Below, in pieces: positions 51,760 through 64,000 of a stretch of 64,000 bases of DNA (position 1 is the first letter of the stretch; the number at the start of each line of letters is the position of its first letter). Under the pieces are notes generated by a model. The model ran no database searches. It was not told the DNA's origin and saw only the letters and a list, made by a program, of their open reading frames with translations. The translations under genes and the position numbers were made by a program. The DNA is from Tetmemena sp. SeJ-2015 (lineage: Eukaryota; Ciliophora; Spirotrichea; Sporadotrichida; Oxytrichidae): assembly GCA_027382625.1 (NCBI GenBank), contig JAJKFJ010023570.1:94784-158783 (forward strand), given 5' to 3'.

Positions 51760-54143
51760 ATGAGTTAAATTATCGCCTCAGAGAAAACCCTCAAAATTGA
51801 CCCTCTTCTAACCTAAGCATTTGCAAAACTAGGTAATATACTGCGATATAGAACTCATAACTACTAGCATATTCTTAATCCACTTACTAAATAAGCTTTG
51901 TAGATGAAATATGCAAGAATGAAAAAGAAATCAAGAAGCACTTTGAAGTTATTAGTGAGATGACAGCACTCAGATGCTTATATATGCTTGGGCCGATAAC
52001 AAACGATAGCCAATCAAAGATAGTCGTCAAGTCTTCAAAGCTCAAGTAAAATTTCTAAAATTCTGTATATCAATCTTTTTTCAGAGAAGGCACCATACTG
52101 AAGTATAAGGAGTTATCCAAGCAAATTTATGACAGAGACTCTGCAGGAAAATAATTTTTACAAAAGATCAATCATACCTATCCAGATTGGAATGCATAAG
52201 CTACAGTAAGTATTTTCTACAACTTACTCTATATAGTCACAGAAGAAATCTTTCCCAGCCCAAAGCCAACCTAATTTGAAGAAATCTTCTACAGTAAACT
52301 TCAAGCAATAGTTCTACTCTTAAGCAAAGCATTTCAACGCTCTAGATGATACAGGCGAAGATTCTTTAGAAAACTCAAAAGATATTTCGCAACTCAACAA
52401 GACTAATTTGTCTTTGGAAAAGCTGGCTCATGAACTCTCGCCATCTAGAAATTAAAAGATGGACCTAACTCAAGGAAGATAAATTACTTAGTCAACTTCT
52501 TAGGCAATTGGAGGGAAGAAATTCTTGCACTAAAGAACCTTAAGTCCTTTGCTAGAAACACTCTAAGAGGATGACGAAGCCTCTTCATCTAGGCACAGAG
52601 GAAATAAAGGTTAAGGCTAAAATGATCACAACAAGGAACTATTTGAAAGCGGGATGATATCTGATTCGGGATTTAGTAGCTCCAACAAGTAAGGAGATTT
52701 TGCGCCGATGAGAGTATCTCTATTGAGTCAAAAGGAGACAAAGGATTATATTAAGTAGAGCAGCTCTAGGAAGCAGAGAAAGAGTGTTTTAAGTTTAAGA
52801 AATTCTCAGGCCAAAATTAAAGAAATTATAAGCAGAGGAATACCCATAGATTAACTTTAAAATTCTATCTTGGATGGAGGGTAATGAGAATCTGATGACT
52901 ATGATTATGAAAGGCCAAAGAGAAAGCAAAGAAAAGTGTATGAAGACACTCAATAGGAGGAGGAGTCTCTCATTGAGCATTCTTTATTGGTAGATACTAA
53001 GAATGTTTTGGAAATATTTTCAAAGTAAATAAGAATAAAGCCTTGGGAGGAAGCTCCATTTTAGCTTCAGCCTTTTTACAGGATGCATTTATTGAAGCTC
53101 AGCAAAGACTTATTTAGATTGAAAACGGATAAAGATCTCCTAGTTTACATTAAGAATAGTAAGGCTTAAGATTAAATTTCATTTCAATTTTGCTATGTTA
53201 GAGGATTTCCTGACTATTTTATTTAGATTTGAGAGTTTTTAGCTCTGGTGATAAGTAGACCTTAATAAGTCTTTTAAAAGTGATTAAGTCTCCCTACGTT
53301 GCCTATGCTGAAGATGAAAATAGTTGCTTAATCCTCAAATCTATTTTCCATATTGAGGGTTCTAGTGATAATGTATATCAAGCTTTAAAGCAATCTCAAT
53401 CCTCAGATAATAAGGTTTTTGAAGCTTCTTCCTGCTAAGGATTTTCTTCTGGAGTGAGTCGGAATAAATACAGTAGAATAATTTATTCTGACAAAAGCGG
53501 CAAGTAAGATCATGATTGGTTTAATCAGATTAGAACAGAATCAAATATTTCCAGTGGAAACTAGAATCTTGGGGACTTGAAAACTCCCTTACTATAATTT
53601 ATGAGGAAAATTGACTCAAATTCTTTCATTCTAATTGAGTAGTCTATAATTAGCAGTGAGGCTAATGCTGTCCCAGTACGGATTATTTGCTTATATTTTG
53701 ATATAGGGAGGAGAAAACAATCACTTATATTCTATAATCTTATCTAAATTATAGTAATGAATGATATAAAATGAATGAAGTTGTGTGTTTGAAACTGCTC
53801 GTGGCAAAGCAAAAGAATACAAAGATTACCGAAATTAAGCAATACTTTAGCACTTCTAGCTATAACTCAGCAAGCTGGCTATCCTCATACGATTTTACAT
53901 TACTTTTAACTTGTTAATTTAAATTTAAATGACTTAAGTAAGTGTGCTAACAGTAGAAATATATCTATAGCAAGTGCTTGTGGTGAGGCTCATTTTAATT
54001 TTATTTTAGGAAATATTTGGAAAGGTTTAATATGCCGAAAAGGCGGAGAAATTAATCAGGGATTGGATCAGAAAATATAGGCTAAAACAAAGCAACTTAA
54101 GATATATTTTCAGAAATTAGAAGAAACCCTTTTTAAATTGAAG
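51760..54143 (+). CDS. protein of unknown function with Ser/Lys-rich centre
   Basis: It starts at the ATG at 51760 (MSQIIASEKTLKIDPLLTQA). Two introns are clear: 51833-51903 (71 nt) and 52046-52084 (39 nt, ending CAG). The N-terminal ~110 residues look globular (HFEVISEMTALRCLYMLGP, KYKELSKQIYDRDSAGK), the centre is Ser/Lys/Gln-rich and disordered with a possible basic nuclear signal (ERPKRKQRK), and the C-terminal third is mixed (WEEAPFQLQPFYRMHLLKLS, WFNQIRTESNISSGN). The last segment (KAEKLIRDWIRKYRLKQSN) ends at a TGA at 54141-54143 after a further intron or IES near 53940-54010. A nuclear or DNA-repair-type role is possible from composition only; I do not recognise it. Confidence 0.55.
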
Positions 54144-54722
54144 GATTTGCCTCCCTCATAAACCCTTTATAGTAATTAAGTTTAATAGATAGTCTTTACA
54201 TTTTATTTTAAGAGGAAGAGATCCCTCTATCAGAACAACTTAAGAATAGAAGGTAAGGAGAGGAAAATTACGTTAAAAGATAAAGTGGGCTTGAAATTTA
54301 AAATAAATATAATCCTAATGTATAGTATAAGTTGAGATAATTAAATTTAAATTAATTAAAATATTATACGTTCTACCCCAATTTTTGACTATTGGCAAGG
54401 CCCACTTTTTTAGTCTTTTTCAATTAAAAAATATTAAAATAAATTATGTTATTGGATATTTACGATTATTAAGAAAGCGATTTCACACTTTGGGCTTCTT
54501 AGTAAATAATAGCTATGAGTGTTAAATCTCTTTTTAAATTTGTTTTAAAAATTATTAAAATTAATTTTCCCAAAAAAACAATCCCTTCCCGATGCAAAAA
54601 AGCAAACCCCCAAACCCAAATTCCAACCTAAATTAAAAAATGAAAAAAATTTATTTAAATTTAAAAAAATTATTTTAAATATACTTATATCAAGGAGTAG
54701 TGAAATTATTTTTCATTTTGAA
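54144..54722. other. intergenic region with degenerate C/A-rich tract
   Basis: AT-rich spacer of about 580 bp. At 54583-54632 the + strand is rich in C and A runs, including ACCCCCAAACCCAAA at 54606-54620, loosely like ciliate telomere repeats but not a regular C4A4 array. Otherwise nothing was recognised. Confidence 0.4.
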
Positions 54723-57408
54723 ATGAATGAAATAAATTTACGAAAGTTAGACAGAAGAAATAAGAGAGACAAAATGATGGTTGAAAGAATTAGAGAGGAA
54801 ATTCCCCAGATCAGAGATGATCTTTAATTTCTTTCTTGTTTATTATGATGGAATCAGTTTACATCTTGATCAGGCCTAGAATAGCATCTATAATTATTTA
54901 TGAGTTACTTTTTTATAGATTGATAGCAGGAGAAATGTTCAAACTAAAAATGGAGGAAGCAACAGCATTCAAAGAGAGCCAAAAACTTCAAGCTATTATA
55001 ATGAAATGATGATGTGTCGCAAAATATATTTAAAAAATATTTAGCTAAGTTGATGATGCCCAGCTTGCCATGCAAATGCAAAACCTTTTTAATTATTAAA
55101 TGAGAGAAAGATTGACTTTGAGCGAAAGAGAAGAAGTCAAGGGAAGCGGAGTGGCATCTCCAGCCCAAGACCCGCTTTTAGTCGAAGGAAGTCTGTCTTA
55201 GTTTGATGATGATCAAGCTAGCGAAACTTCTGAGGATTCCTCCTACGATTATGAGGAATAATTTAGCACAACTATAAGTCTTTATTATAATGGAAGAACT
55301 GAAGCAAGTCACTCTAGAGCCTGGACAACAAAACAACTTCTTCGAGGAGATAGACTTCAGACGAGACCCTAAGCTTGGCCTAGTGTTCACTAACGAAGAG
55401 CTATTGAAAAAGTAAAGAGGAGTGATGTCTCACTTCATCAAGCAGATGGGATTCAATTTCTTGCATGGCAAATCGATTCTTTCCATCAGCTTGCCAATCA
55501 AGATAATATCAGTAAAGTATGAAAGACATTTATTTGTAATTATTAGAGATCTTCGACTCTAAGTCATTCCTAGAGAAGATAGCGATGTTCATGAAAATGG
55601 CTCCCTACTACTTTGAAAAGGCGGCAGCTGTGAAGCAAGACGGCTTTGCTGCAGCTCTGGAGAGATTCAAACTAGTAGTAGCTTTTGCAGTGAGCATCAG
55701 ATAGTTCACTGCGCAGATGAGAAAGCCCTTCAACCCTATATTAATTTGGCATGCGATTTAAATTTCTGATAATATTGGGAGAAACTTACGAGGCTAGAGT
55801 AGGCTAGTACAAGCTAGGCCTGGAGTAAATCTGTCACCATCCTCCCATTACTTATTACTCTTAATCATTCGATTTATTTGATCATATATTGGAACTCGCT
55901 TTGGAATGAAACCCATAGCAAGTTCAAGGCATATGGTTCTCTGGAATACAGACCGGTAATTGGAGCGAACACAGCAGGTGGGCACGGATTCGGACCATTT
56001 ATCGTGGAATTTGAGGGCGGTCACTAAATAGAAATTTGGTCCCCCAAGACAGAGGTCAGTGGAACACTCTATGGAGACCGTTCCTTCAATATCACCGATG
56101 TCATGACTATCAAGGATAAACTTTTCAACTTCAATTGCCAAATCATCTTTAACCCAGAAAGGAAAACTTATACTAAAATTTATGATAATTTATTAAGGAA
56201 TAAAAGCATATTTTAGTATTAAATATAGTTTTTTATTCCTAATCAAAGTTAATGTTATTTTTGAAAAGCTATTTCCCATATTAAAGCCTTGTGATGAAAT
56301 TAACTAATAAAATTTCACTAATCTGGCAACTTTTACCAATATTTAGAAGTAATTAATCTCTTAAGGTCGAATCAAAAATTATTTATTACAGTGATGAATC
56401 AAAATTGTAAACAAATTTTACAGCATTAGACGTTTTGAAGAAAATCATAATGCAAATACAAAATATCTTATCAGCTTGAAATTCACTCACTTAACACTTC
56501 TTTTAGTTAAGATACATGAAAGCTTGCTGCATAAAAATAAGCTTTATATAACTTTCTTAAACAAACATAAAAAATATAGGCTTTGAAATAATTTGAAAAC
56601 AATTACACTGAAGTAAATTTATCTATTGCAAAGATTTTGTTGAGAAAATGACCTAGTAAATTTCTTCAACTGCTTAATTAAATTTATTCAGCTCTTGTTG
56701 AAACTTTCTATTTTATTAAATGAATTTATGAATTCAAGCAATTTTTAGTTAACTGGATTGAAAGGACTTTTTGGAATGGGCGGAAGCTCATAAATCGAAT
56801 ATCAATAACTTGTTAATTTGTTTAAGATTTCTCATCTTCAAGTTAAAATTTGGACAATCGCGGAGACTATATAGAGGGAGTAATTTCTTTCAATGATTAG
56901 TTGGACTACAAAAAGAACAGAGGAAAGCTCTCACCAGGCAAAGACTATCTATGCATGATCACTGGCCACTGGACCGAAGACCTGTTCATTGATGGAGTGC
57001 AATACTGGAATGCAAATCAATACAAAGGACTCGCCATCAGACCCACCAAGAACCCTCTCCTAATGAAAATTTATTTTTACTTATCTCCCAAGCGACTGCA
57101 GATTCAGAGAAGACTTAATTGTTCAAGATACTCATGCATCAATATTTAGTAAACTTGATTCATTTGATTAACACAGATGAGGAAACTGGTTAGGTAAGGA
57201 ATCTATTCTTGGCACTCATCCCAAGAAAATTAAAGGAAAATATGTTCTCTTTCCAAGTCTATTTTTTCATTTTTCAATTAACTAATACCCTTACTTATAG
57301 AAATGGAAGGAGATTTTAGAGGACCGCCAACGCCATGATAGAAAATTAAGAGAAGACTGCGCAAAGAGAAGAGCTAAAGGTGGCAGAAAGTTCGCAAACA
57401 TCTTCTGA
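54723..57408 (+). CDS. oxysterol-binding protein-related protein (ORP)
   Basis: A lipid-transfer protein (sterol/PI4P exchange) at membrane contact sites. The N-terminus (MNEINLRKLDRRNKRDKMM) is acidic and Ser-rich up to about 55260, then the OSBP domain follows: GVMSHFIKQMGFNFLHGKSI, KAAAVKQDGFAAALERF, NPILGETYEAR, the HHPP fingerprint (LEQICHHPPITYYSLW), SPKTEVSGTLYGDRSF, LCMITGHWTEDLFIDG and the C-terminal KWKEILEDRQRHDRKLRED. There is no PH domain. IESs at 55501-55546, 55738-55771, 55857-55893 and 56157-56759 all restore family motifs. The N-terminal join near 55256-55292 uses pointer GGAA; a later IES has pointer TCTCC near 57060-57100. A 107-nt intron lies at 57194-57300. Stop at 57406-57408. 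The family is firm. Confidence 0.9.
55501..55546 (+). other. IES (46 bp, pointer AGAT)
   Basis: AGAT at 55501-55504 and 55547-55550. Excision restores ISLPIKIFDSKSFLEKIAMF of the sterol-binding domain. Confidence 0.85.
55738..55771 (+). other. IES (34 bp, pointer ATATT)
   Basis: ATATT at 55738-55742 and 55772-55776. Excision restores the ORP motif FNPILGETYEA. Confidence 0.88.
55857..55893 (+). other. IES (37 bp, pointer ACTC)
   Basis: ACTC at 55857-55860 and 55894-55897. Excision joins HHPPITYYS to LWNETHSKFKAYG. Confidence 0.85.
56157..56759 (+). other. long IES (603 bp, pointer GAAAGGA)
   Basis: GAAAGGA at 56157-56163 and 56760-56766 flank 603 bp of AT-rich DNA. Excision joins IIFNPER to TFWNGRKLINRI in one frame. 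The insert has no convincing coding segment, although a stretch near 56440-56560 stays open on the + strand. Confidence 0.75.
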
Positions 57409-57568
57409 GCTACATGAATAGATACCATTATAGCTAATCATCTATCAATATCATCAAAAATTAATAAATCTATATTACAAATCATTATATTCTTGAAAAA
57501 TTTAATTCCCAGTTTTAAGAATTAGTTACGTCTTTGTGAATCGCAAGTATTTTTTTCAATTTTTTAAT

Positions 57569-59029
57569 ATGACGTGGTCTAAACTGTATTATCGTAAACT
57601 AACTCCATCAATCTAAAAATAACTAAACCTCATCAGCTCTAAAAGTATCTTTAATTATAAATCATCTTTAACTTTAAGCATTTTAAATTGTTATATAAAA
57701 TCAGATTCGTATGCGATCAAAGAGAATATAAAGTCCAAAATTTCTTAGAAAATTGCTAAAGTTTCAAAATTAAGAGAAAGTTTAAGATAAGATTATAGAA
57801 GGGAGCATCAGGAATCAGCATTTAGGACTGCTATGAATTTCCAGAGTATAATTATAATTACGTGTATTTGCATCTAAGTTCTTTCCCTAATATTTATCAG
57901 TACTATTATTGTAAAGAGGAGTTAGGGATTATAATTTATTAGAAATAAATTTGAATAATTGCAGTCTAACCACTATTCCCTAACAATCACAAGATTCTTT
58001 CGAAAAGACTATTCAAACAAACCAAATCATCTTAAATTTTTTCCTATATTGAAGCTTGTTAGCTCCCCATCATATGTTCAACTACTTATCAAAAAACAAT
58101 TCTTTATTTTTTTCTTATGGACCCTAGGATATGTCATAATCCTAAATTTGCTCTACATTATAGTGCAATAGTGGTCTGGTATCACTTATGGATAAAAAAT
58201 TTAGGAGGTAGGTGCCATAAATAAACAAAATCACTCCCATTTCTTTCAAACTGATTAATTATGAAATAAAATTAAGCTTCAAAATCATTGAGTTTAAGCA
58301 TTTAATGGATAATCTTCCATTTAAGGTAGCTTGTTTATCCAAAAGTGCTTTTTAAAACAAAAGAGGACTTTTTATTCCGCATTTATGCAAATGATTTTGA
58401 AGCATTGATATTAAAACATGCTTATAGTTGAAATTCCTATTGAGAAAAATGTGGCTGGCTTGGACAAAAGACGCCTGTTCTACACAACTCGCTCTCCAGC
58501 CATCCTATATGAATTCTTTCACAAAATGCTGAGTAGATTCGATAGAGCTTATTGGACAGATTAGTGCGGATAAGATGCATACCTCTATCTTCTTTTCTAG
58601 AGAAGACTCTTCAGACAGGCATTCATTATGGCAGTAGCTTCTCTCATTTATTTAAACAAGCTATAGTTATATAAGTAATTTGAATGAATAGGATATTGTG
58701 AGCCTCTCTGTGAACTTATTCATAACATCTGAGCAGCAGGAATGGTTTGAAAAGAGTGGTCTCAATAACAAAACGCTTAACTCTATTTCAGTGTGGGCTC
58801 ACTGCGGTTTGGTGGTGCTGTTTACAGTCCTTACTTTCTTCACAGTGTTTGACCTAAGAGAAGAGGCAAGAGAAGTTTATCTCACTCGACAGAAGGCTAC
58901 TATCTAAGAAGCCAAATCAAAGCGCTCCAGCACTCTTAAGGAAGATGAGCAGTCAAAGAAAAAGAAGGATTACGAGTGGCTCAAAGCAAGGACCCTTCAT
59001 GTCAGAGGCTTGCTTCCCAAAGATAGAAG
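57569..59029 (+). CDS. TMEM63/OSCA-type mechanosensitive channel, 5' MDS block (scrambled gene)
   Basis: N-terminal part of a TMEM63/OSCA channel in forward orientation. A long frame from the ATG at 57569 (MTWSKLYYRKLTPSI) includes hydrophobic segments near 57850 and 58090-58165. Then come YPKVLFKTKEDF, IPIEKNVAGLDKRRLFYTTR and the family signature DQCGQDAYLYLLFQRRLF. A membrane segment (SVWAHCGLVVLFTVLTFFTVF) and LKARTLHVRGLLPKDR, equivalent to the TLxVxGLP motif, follow. IESs at 58408-58423 and 58669-58687 restore the frame. The block ends at the pointer 59019-59029. The remainder lies on the other strand at 59104-62078. The family and the block are well supported; the extreme N-terminus (before 58260) is less certain. 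Confidence 0.8.
58408..58423 (+). other. IES (16 bp, pointer ATA)
   Basis: ATA at 58408-58410 and 58424-58426. Excision fuses RIYANDFEALI to VEIPIEKNVAGLDKRR; unexcised, the frame hits TGA. Confidence 0.65.
58669..58687 (+). other. IES (19 bp, pointer ATA)
   Basis: ATA at 58669-58671 and 58688-58690. Excision joins YLNKLQLQ to DIVSLSVNLFITSEQQEW. Confidence 0.65.
59019..59029 (+). other. scrambling pointer, 5' copy (AAAGATAGAAG)
   Basis: An 11-bp pointer at the end of the forward MDS block. Its partner is the reverse complement at 62068-62078. Joining through it gives LLPKDRRGDMLKNELN with no frame change, as expected for the TMEM63/OSCA cytosolic loop. Confidence 0.9.
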
Positions 59030-59103
59030 TGAAAATTAGTGCTATTCATACTTTACATAAAAGGTAATTTGAATTATTTGTATAGTCAATATAAACTTCA
59101 ATA

Positions 59104-62078
59104 TCAATAATGCTTCATCAAATAATCGACAGACAGCTATTTAAGGTTTGAATCTTTCTTTCTAGTTTGAAAATATGTTAACTCACTCGTCTGAGATTTC
59201 AATTTAAGGGTGATTTTGATAACCATTTTAACTTGCTGAGCTGCTGGCTGCCTGGATATTGATCTAAGAAGTATTGCTTGCGTAATCTGTAGAATGCTTG
59301 TAAATGGATAACTAGCTGGCAACGCTTCCCTTATTTGGTTTTACTCCAACTCCAAGCTATCCGTTTACTTAATTATCAAATTTAATAATGATGATTAAAC
59401 TTAGTAAGATTCTTATGCGAATGGATTAATGGCCTCCGCTTAAAGTCCAGAGTTTGCAAATTGCATGGATGTATGACTCATGTGGGCCCCAGACAAATTT
59501 TACTGATGCAAGTGTGAGTTTCTACCATTATAAAAGTTAATGATGAAATAGATATTATTTGCAGCAGCTGAGCGATTTGTCTTTCTATCTGAAGAGCCAG
59601 AGCTGAAGATCAATTCCTTCAGTCTTTGCTCATTCTCTTTTCTCTTTATTTCTGCCTACTGCTCATCAATTGGTTTTTCGAAGTTGCTGCTATAATTACA
59701 AAAATAAATTTAATTAAAATTAGAACAAACAAATTTCTAGCAGATTCAAAATCTAATTGCTTCTTAACTTCAGCTATATTCAAATCAGCTGAGGCAGCTG
59801 TGTCTCTTTGCTCGCGATTGGGCTTTGCGGATATCAAAATTATTGAATGAATATAAGTACATGAGGATTAATTAGCCTTTATAGCTTCGAGGTCAAAAAA
59901 TTGAGAGCTTGATTTGGTTCCTATCATTAATGGATGGTTGTATTCCTACCTCCACTTTTGAAGGGGCACATATAAATCGAGTTATTCAGTTAGATCATTG
60001 ATGTGACGTTACTCATTAGATCCATCATCTCCATCTATTATTGAATCTCTGCCTAATGCATCCTATAGTGGAACGGGCTTATCGCCATTTGTTAGAGCTT
60101 GATCGGCGTATTCAGCGGCTTGTGCAGGGTTGAAGAGAGACTTATTGGTTACAAAAACTACGACGAGTAGTGAAATTGCAAACACAAGGCCTAAGAAGCA
60201 TGCGCAAGAGAGGTAGTCGTTCATCAGCATATATGCTACCATGCAAAGCTACAGAAGCAAGATTACAATTTATAATAAAGATTGCATACTGAGTATAGAG
60301 AAGTATCTTTTGGAAAACTTTGCAGCTGGAGTCTATTTCCTTGCGATTAATGGTCAACAGATTGTAGCTGTCAACAATGTGGCGAAGTCCAAAGAATAAA
60401 AGGGCACCGCAACAAGCTAGAGGGACTGAAGAGGCAAACACCAATAGGATGCTGAAAATTGCCAAATGCTGAGCATAGAAGAAACCATATTAGAATACCA
60501 TGTACTCTCTTCTCACATTTTTTAGATCGCAAATTAAAAGATTTTTCTCCTCCATGCTTAGGAATCATTGATATACTTTCTGCGGTAATGAGATAACCAA
60601 GGAGAGAAGAAGGCCGACCCAATATCACCAGGGCGTACGAGACATGAACAGAGTGACAAACATGCGTTTTGAATAAGCATGGAAACGAAGAAGACCCCAG
60701 AATCAGTCTGATAGAATGATCCTAGAACTGCCTAAAATTTTTTATTTTAATGCCAAAAGATTGTAGTCATTTGCTTTTATAACTTCAAGGTTAAAATGTT
60801 TTGAACTAAATTAAATTTAAAAATTAAAGGATGGAAGATTGGCTCGTTATATTCTTAAAATTATGCCAATTAAAGAGAAGCCATTAATATTCTTTAACAT
60901 TTGGATTTATTTTATTTATTAAATTGCTGGAATATACCATTTTATTTATTTAGAATCATTAGACTAATAAATTTGAATGCTATGAATAGTAACAGCGGGA
61001 ATAATGAGCATAATTTAGCATGAGATAAACATAAGCTTTGTTGAAAATAGAGTACTGATAATTGGAGTGAGTCTCTCTCTTTTCCCAGTAAGCTGCATAG
61101 TAAATTCCATACAAAAGGATATTGTTAATAGCTATGATAACGAGGGGAGGGAAGAAAGTTGCCATGAAATTGCTGCCCCAATCATCTGCAGTTGGAGTGT
61201 TCTAGAGAGTTGTCACATCCAAGAAACTGAAGAGCTAGTCATATTTGATGTGTGACATATTTAAAATAAGATTAGTTAATCTTGAGAGTAGAGTAAATAG
61301 CAGCAGGAGTTGAGAGAAACAGTACAAGTGAGAGGCCAATGACATTGAAGAAAACTTTGCGGAAGTAATACATACCTCTCGTTCCACCCATATTTCCCCA
61401 GATAATGTCAACTGGATCGCTGGCCTATGTCATGATTAGAGTTAGATCTTTTTCTCTATAGCCTTATGCGATAATCACATCTTCATCTTCAAACTGATTG
61501 AAAGTTTACTTATCTCCAATCGCACCATTTTTGGATGATAATCCTTTTCCGACTGTTGACAATGACTTTGAAAACATTGAGGAGAAGAAGGTTTTGGATA
61601 TTCTCTTTCACAGAAACCTTTGCAAGTCTCCAAGCATATCGAAGGTAAATTTAATTTAGATACTAGCATAAGTAGGGGTCATTCTCGACTGTTGAAGACA
61701 ATGATTAAGACTTTTAGCTGAATCAAGGACCACGAAGGCGTGGCCTGAGGACAAGAAGGGCTTCTCAATTTCATTTTGTACCTCGTTCTCAAGATACTCT
61801 CTTCTCTCAGGAACTGTTGCAGAGTAAGTCAAAACATATTTAATGCATCTCAAGCTTAAATATTAAGTCCACAGGCATCTGAAAATAGATTGTCTGAGAC
61901 AGCCAGGATTACCGTGTGCCTGCACCAAAATGTGGAGATCATCTAAATCCTTTTTCTCAATTTCTAAATCGAAGAGTCTTTGGAAATCAGGTACAACAAC
62001 TACATCAAGTACTCTGCCATTTATTGGCTTTAGCATGATGTTAAGTTCATTCTTCAACATGTCGCCTCTTCTATCTTT
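59104..62078 (-). CDS. TMEM63/OSCA-type channel, inverted 3' MDS block (scrambled gene)
   Basis: The rest of the channel reads on the minus strand from the pointer at 62078 down to a TGA complementary to 59104-59106. Family motifs in order: GRVLDVVVVPDFQRLFDLEI; FLSSGHAFVVLDSAKSLNHC; TLIMTQASDPVDIIWGN followed by MGGTRGMYYFRKVFFN and LSTPAAIYSTL; FMATFFPPLVIIAINNILL with YWEKRETHSNYQYSIFNKAY; DSGVFFVSMLIQNACLSL; FYAQHLAIFSILLVFASSVP; and CGALLFFGLRHIVDSYNL. A Gln/Ala-rich cytosolic tail follows. Membrane segments and loops match the TMEM63 pore region (TM3-TM10). Order within the block is normal, so the only rearrangement seen is the inversion. IESs break it near 61855-61865, 61650-61670, 61225-61280, 60725-60980 and 59840-60140. 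Confidence 0.87.
62068..62078 (-). other. scrambling pointer, 3' copy (minus strand AAAGATAGAAG)
   Basis: + strand CTTCTATCTTT at 62068-62078. It is the start of the inverted block and partner of 59019-59029. Confidence 0.9.
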
Positions 62079-62084
62079 TAATAT

Positions 62085-63480
62085 TCAATAGAAACTAATC
62101 ATATTTGTTGTATAAGTACTGCTTTAGAGGTAGTCGAGAGTAGATAAACGACCCTGGGAAACTTTCATATTCATAGAAGCACATCTTAAAAATCATTTAA
62201 TTGACAAATGAGTTAATAATCTTGAAATATTAATATGAATTTTACTGAAAAATGATTTTATACTTAAATTTTGTTGATCTAAGGTGACTTATCCTGTACC
62301 AAGAAGACGTCTAGGTGTTCATAATTTATAGGAATGATAAGTCTTAAACTCCACCCCTGATTAGCTACTGCTTGCGATAAATGAATCTTAGTAATTGAGT
62401 TGCAAGTACTAGAATTTTATGTGAGATCCTCGCTAGTTTATTAATCATTTGGAGAGAAGCCAGGCATTGGAACTTGCTTCAGAATTTTAGCTTTGGATTT
62501 AGATAGAATAAAAATAGTCAAAACTTAATTTGACTATAGATTATTCTTCTTCTTCTCTTTCTTCAGAAATGAAAGAGAGATTATCGTTGAGTAGGCCTCC
62601 ATTATAAATTTCTAGAACTTCCATATCATTCATTTGCATAAATGGACTTATATCAATGATATTATTTTAATATGATATTCAGCAATCTATTGAAGGCTCT
62701 GAATTGAGTGATTTTTATTTGCTGTTGTGGAAACAGAACTTTGAATGGGCCACTATCGAATCTAAGCTTGCTTCTGAATTACTCTGTCAAGTTAACTCCA
62801 TTTATCATTATCAATGGACAGAAGTTGGTGTTCTCTAACTGCTACGCTGAAGAAGTCTAGGCCTTAATTTGGATGTGAATATTGTAATTTATTGATAAAA
62901 GAAATTATAAATTGTTGAAGGAGTTGAATTTCAAAAAGCTGAGATGGTTACTTGCCATGGAGGATACATCTATGGGGATGCGTTTATAGAAATCATTCAG
63001 TAGGATTATTAAATTATCTCTGGTATCTGAAACGAAGGTACCAAATGTTTTAATAAATGATTAGAATTAATTAAATGACTCATTTGAGGTTGAGGAAGAT
63101 GAATATGATAAGGGGCTCCCTATATTTGAAGATTACATGTTTTAACTCACGAATCCCTCTAGAGATTGCGATTATTAGTGAGATGAATAATTTTGAGACT
63201 TGAGAGGACTAGCCCTCTCATAGATTATTTTCATATAAGTCTTCTCAGAGCGAATCTAGAAAAGTAAATTTTGGTTCATCTTAAGATCTTGTAACTTGAA
63301 CCACCCGTTGAATGCAAGCATATCAGAAAACTCAATTTCCTAGAAGAGATCGATTTATTAGATTCTAAAAATGAGCTAAAATTAATATCGATGTTATCTT
63401 CGAGACTTTAATTGTCATCTTATTATATGTGCAGATGTGAAAGTGGATACTCAATTTAAAGAGCCTGGATCACATTCTAG
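62085..63480 (-). CDS. protein of unknown function
   Basis: Minus-strand coding with TAA/TAG as Gln, broken by several frame changes (IESs). Recognisably globular pieces: FSDMLAFNGWFKLQDLKMNQ then NLLFQIRSEKTYMKIIYERA; ENTNFCPLIMINGVNLTEQF then RSKLRFDSGPFKVLF; FMQMNDMEVLEIYNGGLLND followed by a Glu run; and, near the 3' end, YEYESFPGSFIYSRLPLKQY. It lies directly upstream of the inverted channel block, and its 3' end comes within about 10 bp of the scrambling pointer. Start and stop are not determined and no domain is recognised. Confidence 0.45.
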
Positions 63481-64000
63481 AGATGATATGTATTTATCTG
63501 TCCTGTTACTTTATCTTTCAAACTTCCTAAGATTAGTTTAGGATCACTTTTAAAACTCAAAAAAAATGAATTTAGCATATTCACTAAGCTTAACATTAAG
63601 TAGAAGCTGGAAAATAAAGTCGCTCAAGGTTTTCATGAACGCTTGATTTTTCAAGAGTCTTTTTAACCCTTTTGGCTGTCAAATACTTTAAATCAATTTT
63701 AAGAAAGGGGGAAGTCAAAATTGAAAAATAAATCAACCGGAACTAAAAACTTCCCTATACAGGATAAATTAGCCCCGTGCCAGAAATAATTGGCTCAGAT
63801 CGACAGAATTCTTGCTCTACCCCGATTTGACCTTGGCGGGTAAATTTCGACTCGGCGGGGAATTTTTTACTGATCAGCTAAAATATACACGTGCGATAAA
63901 TATTTGAATAGGTTGCTACTAGAATGGACGAGACAAATGCAAATTTTTGACACTTAATTTCAAACTCTGCCGCTCTGATTTCATTGTTAAACGAAGCCGA
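63481..64000. other. terminal region without recognised gene
   Basis: No convincing coding segment. At 63827-63867 there are two degenerate copies of a GGCGGG-AATTT motif (GGCGGGTAAATTT and GGCGGGGAATTTTTT), GC-richer than the surroundings. Otherwise AT-rich. Confidence 0.35.

Follow-up and report, generated by a model that had tools for sequence, protein, structure and literature searches.

An inverted, two-block TMEM63-family gene with an 11-bp repeat at the cut: a likely scrambled germline locus in Tetmemena sp.

Identity and layout of the gene

The window analysed here is a stretch of 64,000 nucleotides from the ciliate Tetmemena sp. SeJ-2015 (assembly GCA_027382625.1, contig JAJKFJ010023570.1, positions 94,784 to 158,783 of the forward strand). 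At window positions 58074-62078 it carries what is in all likelihood one gene of the TMEM63 family, in two blocks that lie on opposite strands and share an 11-bp repeat, AAAGATAGAAG, where the gene is cut. The gene is likely to be rebuilt by flipping the second block at this repeat and removing short AT-rich internal eliminated sequences (IESs), a reading to which we give a probability of about 93%. The window appears to be germline (micronuclear) DNA of a hypotrich ciliate; the code, in which TAA and TAG are read as Q, and homology both point to a hypotrich.

A search with the protein assembled from both blocks identified five relatives: Stylonychia lemnae "transmembrane protein 63c" (P0001, 899 aa; 55% identity, 99% coverage) and P0002-P0005. 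Two further searches for relatives returned nothing beyond P0001 itself and P0006. P0001 carries precomputed Pfam domains PF13967 (RSN1_TM) and PF02714 (RSN1_7TM) and matches solved TMEM63/CSC1 chains. PF02714 was also found in two pieces of block 2 of the window gene (7.6e-10, above the cut-off, and 1.9e-5, below it), with PF13967 weakly represented in block 1 (0.0098 and 0.43, both below the cut-off). Judged by these domains, membership of the TMEM63/OSCA family is secure, and mechanically gated ion conduction is a putative function. P0001 is the likely ortholog; it is one continuous protein known as a gene product of S. lemnae, whereas the window gene is known as a germline locus that appears to be scrambled.

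Spliced alignment to P0001 placed block 1 on the + strand at 58074-59029 and block 2 on the - strand at 59183-62078, read from 62078 downward. Block 1 comprises macronuclear-destined segments (MDSs) 1-3, with the start codon and the first ~196 residues (137 of 193 aligned residues identical), and has two IESs and one predicted intron inside it. Block 2, which is inverted, runs from MDS 4 onward and holds the remaining ~80% of the protein, with 468 of 688 aligned residues identical, or 434 of 576 before the weak C-terminal tail. The protein match starts with an ATG at 58074, where MFNYLWTLGY is aligned with MYNYLWTLGY in P0001. The start codon is placed here because an IES at 58085-58113 separates MFNY from LWTLGY.

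An earlier reading, made from the sequence only, had opened the region at 57569; a start there was rejected, as homology begins at 58074, and no coding support was found for 57569-58073. The sequence-only reading correctly put the N-terminal part of the channel on the + strand and began the other block at 62078 on the - strand, but it overstated the share of the former, which is not a third of the protein but ~196 of 899 residues, about a fifth, and understated that of the latter. The position at which it ended block 2, 59104, is the stop of one frame only. Candidate stop codons lie at 59185-59183, favoured by the S. lemnae alignment, and at 59106-59104, and both the choice between them and the 3' end of the gene are tentative. 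The spacer between the blocks (59030-59182, its extent depending on the stop codon) has a GC content of 0.24 and would be expected to supply the 3' untranslated end and the chromosome end.

In germline order, MDSs 1-2-3 are followed by all later MDSs, inverted in strict sequence and ending with MDS 4. The inversion takes in the entire 3' part of the gene, which ends 74 to ~153 bp from the end of MDS 3, depending on the stop codon, where a fixed 74 bp had been given before. A single scrambled pointer suffices, since nothing of the gene follows the flipped block. The "odd-even" fold proposed from the sequence did not survive the alignment, in which block 1 is in the order 1-2-3 and block 2 is strictly ordered on the other strand. 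An odd-even scrambling pattern, with odd and even MDSs in separate alternating sets, was rejected, since no such alternation is present.

The joint between the blocks

The spliced alignments were made with a script that took P0001 as query and allowed skips between direct repeats of at least 3 bp or at GT-AG. The target was the + strand block followed by the - strand block, with extra sequence on both sides of the joint and the position of the joint left free; a second version of the script also permitted skips of one and two bases. The strand switch was placed exactly on the 11-bp repeat, and with one- and two-base skips permitted 605 of the 881 aligned residues were identical to P0001. Neither strand alone holds the gene, as the joined target scored 2795 and the single-strand scores fell below this (718 for the + strand and 2117 for the - strand). 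The + strand match to S. lemnae residues 104-196 stops at 59027, and the - strand match to residues 194-423 starts at 62078.

The same division was seen in tblastn searches with P0001, P0002, P0003 and P0005 (P0004 was left out), all of which matched both blocks, with the + strand part first and the break at the pointer. The - strand match of P0005 overran the pointer, its apparent extension over 62079-62249 being a weak stretch with stops. The two blocks encode complementary parts of one protein, and their overlap is confined to the 11-bp repeat. As in the scrambled genes of spirotrich ciliates, MDSs are inverted relative to the product, here those of block 2 against those of block 1, in the alignments to P0001 and three further proteins.

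Copy 1 of AAAGATAGAAG lies at 59019-59029 (+), at the end of MDS 3, and copy 2 at 62068-62078 (-), at the start of MDS 4. The 11-bp sequence occurs exactly twice in the 64-kb window, in inverted orientation, and the match extends no further on either side. Joining through it gives the loop LLPKDRRGDMLKNELN, which is identical in the S. lemnae protein, and once three IESs are removed 318 codons run from 58430 through the joint, which is in frame, without a stop or frame break. In these respects the sequence-only reading has held up well: it had described an exact 11-bp sequence at the end of the first block that recurs, reverse-complemented, at the start of the second, an uninterrupted family-typical loop formed by joining through it, and a gene needing inversion of ~3 kb together with removal of ordinary IESs. 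The last of these claims is supported by the strand-switching alignment, the IES inserts and the stop-free joint. At 11 bp, the scrambled pointer is longer than the conventional pointers of 3-6 bp at this locus; scrambled pointers longer than conventional ones are reported in Oxytricha, Tetmemena and E. woodruffi (PMC9797194).

Conventional IESs and the predicted intron

Eleven inserts of 19-137 bp, each lying between direct repeats of 3-6 bp, were identified in the coding sequence by the alignment. Block 1 contains the IES at 58085-58113 (+; 29 bp, pointer CTTAT), whose removal joins MFNY to LWTLGY, and another at 58646-58694 (+; 49 bp, ATT). The nine in block 2, all on the - strand, are, in reading order, at 61831-61869 (39 bp, GACTTA), 61639-61670 (32 bp, TATGCT), 61240-61276 (37 bp, ACTA), 60852-60988 (137 bp, TAT), 60791-60830 (40 bp, CCTT), 60733-60754 (22 bp, GGCA), 60515-60549 (35 bp, GAGAA), 60265-60283 (19 bp, AATCTT) and 59532-59558 (27 bp, ATAAT). 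With a GC content of 0.19 they are poorer in GC than the first 2300 nt of the retained sequence (0.41). AT-rich inserts between short direct repeats are the signature of conventional IESs. Two tentative IESs, at 59833-59868 (-; 36 bp, pointer ATCC), in the weakly conserved C-terminal tail, and at 59693-59739 (-; 47 bp, TAG), are our own reading of repeat positions and not the choice of the script. The tail is weakly conserved after ~59870.

A GT-AG intron of 220 bp is predicted at 58208-58427 (+), with boundaries that we read from the family motif EIPI. Its removal gives GVEIPIEK, and the motif that spans this site in P0002-P0005 is GVEIPIDR, GVEIPIDK, GIEIPIDK and GLEIPIDK, respectively. The alignment script picked a 226-bp skip between AAA repeats here instead of GT-AG. 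Within the predicted intron, 58276-58289 and 58390-58403 form a perfect 14-bp inverted repeat, 100 nt apart, which may fold as a hairpin or mark the border of a small inverted segment. It was not adopted as a second inversion pointer, given that it lies inside the predicted intron and that another perfect 14-bp low-complexity pair is found in the same region.

Copies and paralogs in the assembly

A whole-genome search with P0001 gave 31 matches. Twelve of these are at this locus, six in each of two identical contigs, with 50-72% identity; the other 19 are on other contigs, with 23-49% identity, and represent paralogs. No unscrambled copy of the same gene was found in this genome-wide search. 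Such a copy, by which the locus would be recognized as a degenerate duplicate, was one of the findings that the sequence-only reading had named as speaking against it, and since none was found, the locus has not shown up as a dead duplicate.

The search also bears on the idea that the two blocks are remnants of two different gene copies that lie head to head by chance. Scrambled genes are indeed associated with partial duplicates and paralogs (PMC9797194), but the two halves overlap in 11 bp only, their identity to one and the same S. lemnae protein is 71% and 68%, and no other ortholog copy was found in the assembly, so that we consider this the least credible of the explanations weighed here.

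A distant paralog, carried by contigs C762 and C3210 (the same gene, and the only paralog contigs aligned), is collinear through the site equivalent to the joint. The paralog has no frame break in C762 and four in C3210, and the two contigs differ by 11 one-base indels in one 1332-bp alignment. Contigs of the assembly seem to differ in accuracy, with some of them error-prone; allelic differences are an alternative.

Weighing of the programmed inversion

Several points count against a programmed inversion. A match of 11 bp, taken by itself, is no rarity in a window of 64 kb: dinucleotide shuffles of the window contained a mean of 0.35 copies of the 11-mer and reached two copies in 4 of 100 cases. 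The joined 37-mer had no match with up to 3 mismatches in the 146-Mb assembly, which appears to be germline, and the macronuclear product is unseen. The two contigs that carry the locus, C1866 and C3720, are identical over it and from position 150001 of C1866 up to window position 63690, after which they differ, so they probably do not count as two independent witnesses. In favour of the eleven IESs, their repeats have a mean length of 4.6 bp, and sets of random places of matching spacing gave 1.6 (0 of 5000 sets reached 4.6), and repeats of at least 5 bp occur at six of the 11 against 0.14 expected, but a repeat of at least 3 bp at each IES is built into the script and the spacing was freely chosen, for which the fixed-spacing control corrects in part, so that the comparison overstates the case somewhat. 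The script in fact returned 14 repeat-bounded skips besides the joint, of which 11 were kept and three dropped, namely AAA/226 (read as the intron), TCT/54 (an in-frame difference in length) and AGT/56 (in the tail). Lastly, the alignment to S. lemnae retains three small frame breaks, a two-base skip near 58162 and one-base skips near 61591 and 61013; a possible fourth, in the tail, is doubtful.

Weak evidence by itself, the repeat is strong evidence in its position, because few random pairs of zones share such a run (among 20,000 pairs of 31-nt zones drawn at random from 57000-62600, 9 had an inverted run of at least 11 in common) and because AAAGATAGAAG is the only shared run of at least 10 between the open reading frame that ends block 1 and the one that opens block 2. 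The three small frame breaks are probably sequencing errors, a view suggested by the paralog, which is intact in C762 and broken in C3210.

The frame breaks are also what would be expected if a chance, non-programmed inversion in the germline had broken a gene that is no longer assembled, and if the 11-bp repeat were the scar that a staggered break had left. A staggered break that is filled in on both sides also leaves a short inverted duplication at the two ends. Both blocks are, however, about equally conserved (137/193 and 468/688 identical residues), the joint keeps the reading frame, and the assembly search turned up no second copy. Moreover, the one-base indels that also separate C762 from C3210 mean that the frame breaks may be errors of the contig, with allelic differences again possible. 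We therefore regard a chance inversion as very improbable.

Smaller still is the chance that DNA amplification or assembly produced a spurious inversion. Chimeras that arise during amplification are typically inverted, with short homologies at their joints, and the assembly does contain overlapping contigs that part after window position 63690. Against this, a flipped block requires two false joints, and an artefact would not put two copies of the same 11-mer at a break that is exact to the codon. If the template had switched once, block 1 should reappear in mirror image beyond 62078, but blastn with block 1 against 62079-63690 showed no such copy, only three matches of 12-15 nt. Inversion of the ~3-kb block at the 11-bp pointer together with ordinary IES removal is supported as the best reading of the locus.

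Comparison with known scrambled genes

The locus is most likely an ordinary further example of the gene scrambling known from such ciliates. Scrambled genes make up 15.6% of genes in Oxytricha trifallax and 13.6% in Tetmemena sp. (PMC9797194). The actin I gene of S. lemnae has an inverted terminal pair of segments (MDSs 1 and 2), conventional pointers of 3-10 bp and IESs of 15-64 bp, and its scrambled pointers are 6, 17 and 19 bp long (PMC2394655; which pointers are scrambled was assigned here from the segment order). It resembles the window gene in having an inverted block at one end of the gene and in the lengths of its IESs and conventional pointers, and both have the longer pointer at the inverted joint (19 bp in actin I, 11 bp in the window gene). 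Actin I differs in its three scrambled junctions and in requiring a translocation of segment 9 as well, whereas a single inversion and a single scrambled pointer are sufficient here.

Scrambled loci of O. trifallax and Tetmemena sp. share with the window gene the anatomy of MDSs, IESs and pointers and a scrambled pointer longer than the conventional ones (PMC9797194). Many of these loci show odd-even alternation and paralogous MDSs, whereas the MDSs of the window gene do not alternate and its flanks showed no duplicate of block 1. Among the 12 papers listed by a literature search, of 410 found, none mentions TMEM63, which is no proof of absence.

Proposed assembly and origin of the locus

During development, the conventional IESs would be deleted from the locus, and the inverted joining at AAAGATAGAAG would be guided by RNA copied from the gene of the old macronucleus; the ~3-kb block would be flipped and joined there with one copy of the repeat kept. 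The gene-sized chromosome would then be capped, its 3' end falling within the short spacer at 59030-59182. In S. lemnae and O. trifallax, conventional IESs tend to go first and inversions and translocations later (PMC2394655). Joining is programmed by long noncoding template RNAs (PMC9797194).

The arrangement could, though we think it rather unlikely, have arisen in one step, by a single inversion with one break in an ordinary IES and the other just past the 3' end of the gene; a conventional pointer would thereby have become scrambled, and no gene segment would have had to be duplicated beforehand. Such an origin fits the collinear paralog, in which a conventional IES lies 4 nt downstream of the position that corresponds to the joint, and it also fits the absence of a decayed block 1 copy from the flanks: as a sign of a duplication model, a decayed duplicate of block 1 near the breakpoints was looked for by blastn, which gave four matches of 12-20 nt, the best with an E value of 0.008. 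The first of these points is tempered by the 18% chance that an IES of the paralog lies within 5 residues of any given site. When IES positions were compared between the gene and the paralog, 3 of 11 sites (ten IESs and the joint) fell within 5 residues against 2.0 expected, which is not significant; this comparison excluded, for the window gene, the frame breaks and the skips at residues 37, 165, 787, 821 and 855, and, for the paralog, its intron-like skip.

Thousands of scrambled hypotrich genes are known, and one more changes little. The value of the locus is its simplicity: it has a single inversion and a single scrambled pointer, its spacer measures ~0.1 kb, and the same genome contains an unscrambled paralog. 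It offers a clean case for asking whether scrambling can start by one inversion through an IES instead of by duplication and a compact locus for testing the guidance of inverted joints.

Flanking sequence

Pfam scans of the flanks, covering 52001-58060 (three + frames and one of the three - frames) and 62079-64000 (six frames), gave nothing above the cut-off, and Rfam and tRNA scans of the window also found nothing. The last 310 bases of the window (63691-64000) match C3720 and not C1866, which may reflect an assembly branch, the edge of a repeat or an allele. One frame of 62079-62210 (-) reads FKMCFYEYESFPGSFIYSRLPLKQYLYNKYD, which is coding-like and may be a piece of a neighbouring gene adjoining the inverted block. 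Upstream, one frame of 56915-57070 (+) reads RGKLSPGKDYLCMITGHWTEDLFIDGVQYWNANQYKGLAIRPTKNPLL and looks like part of a gene on that side.

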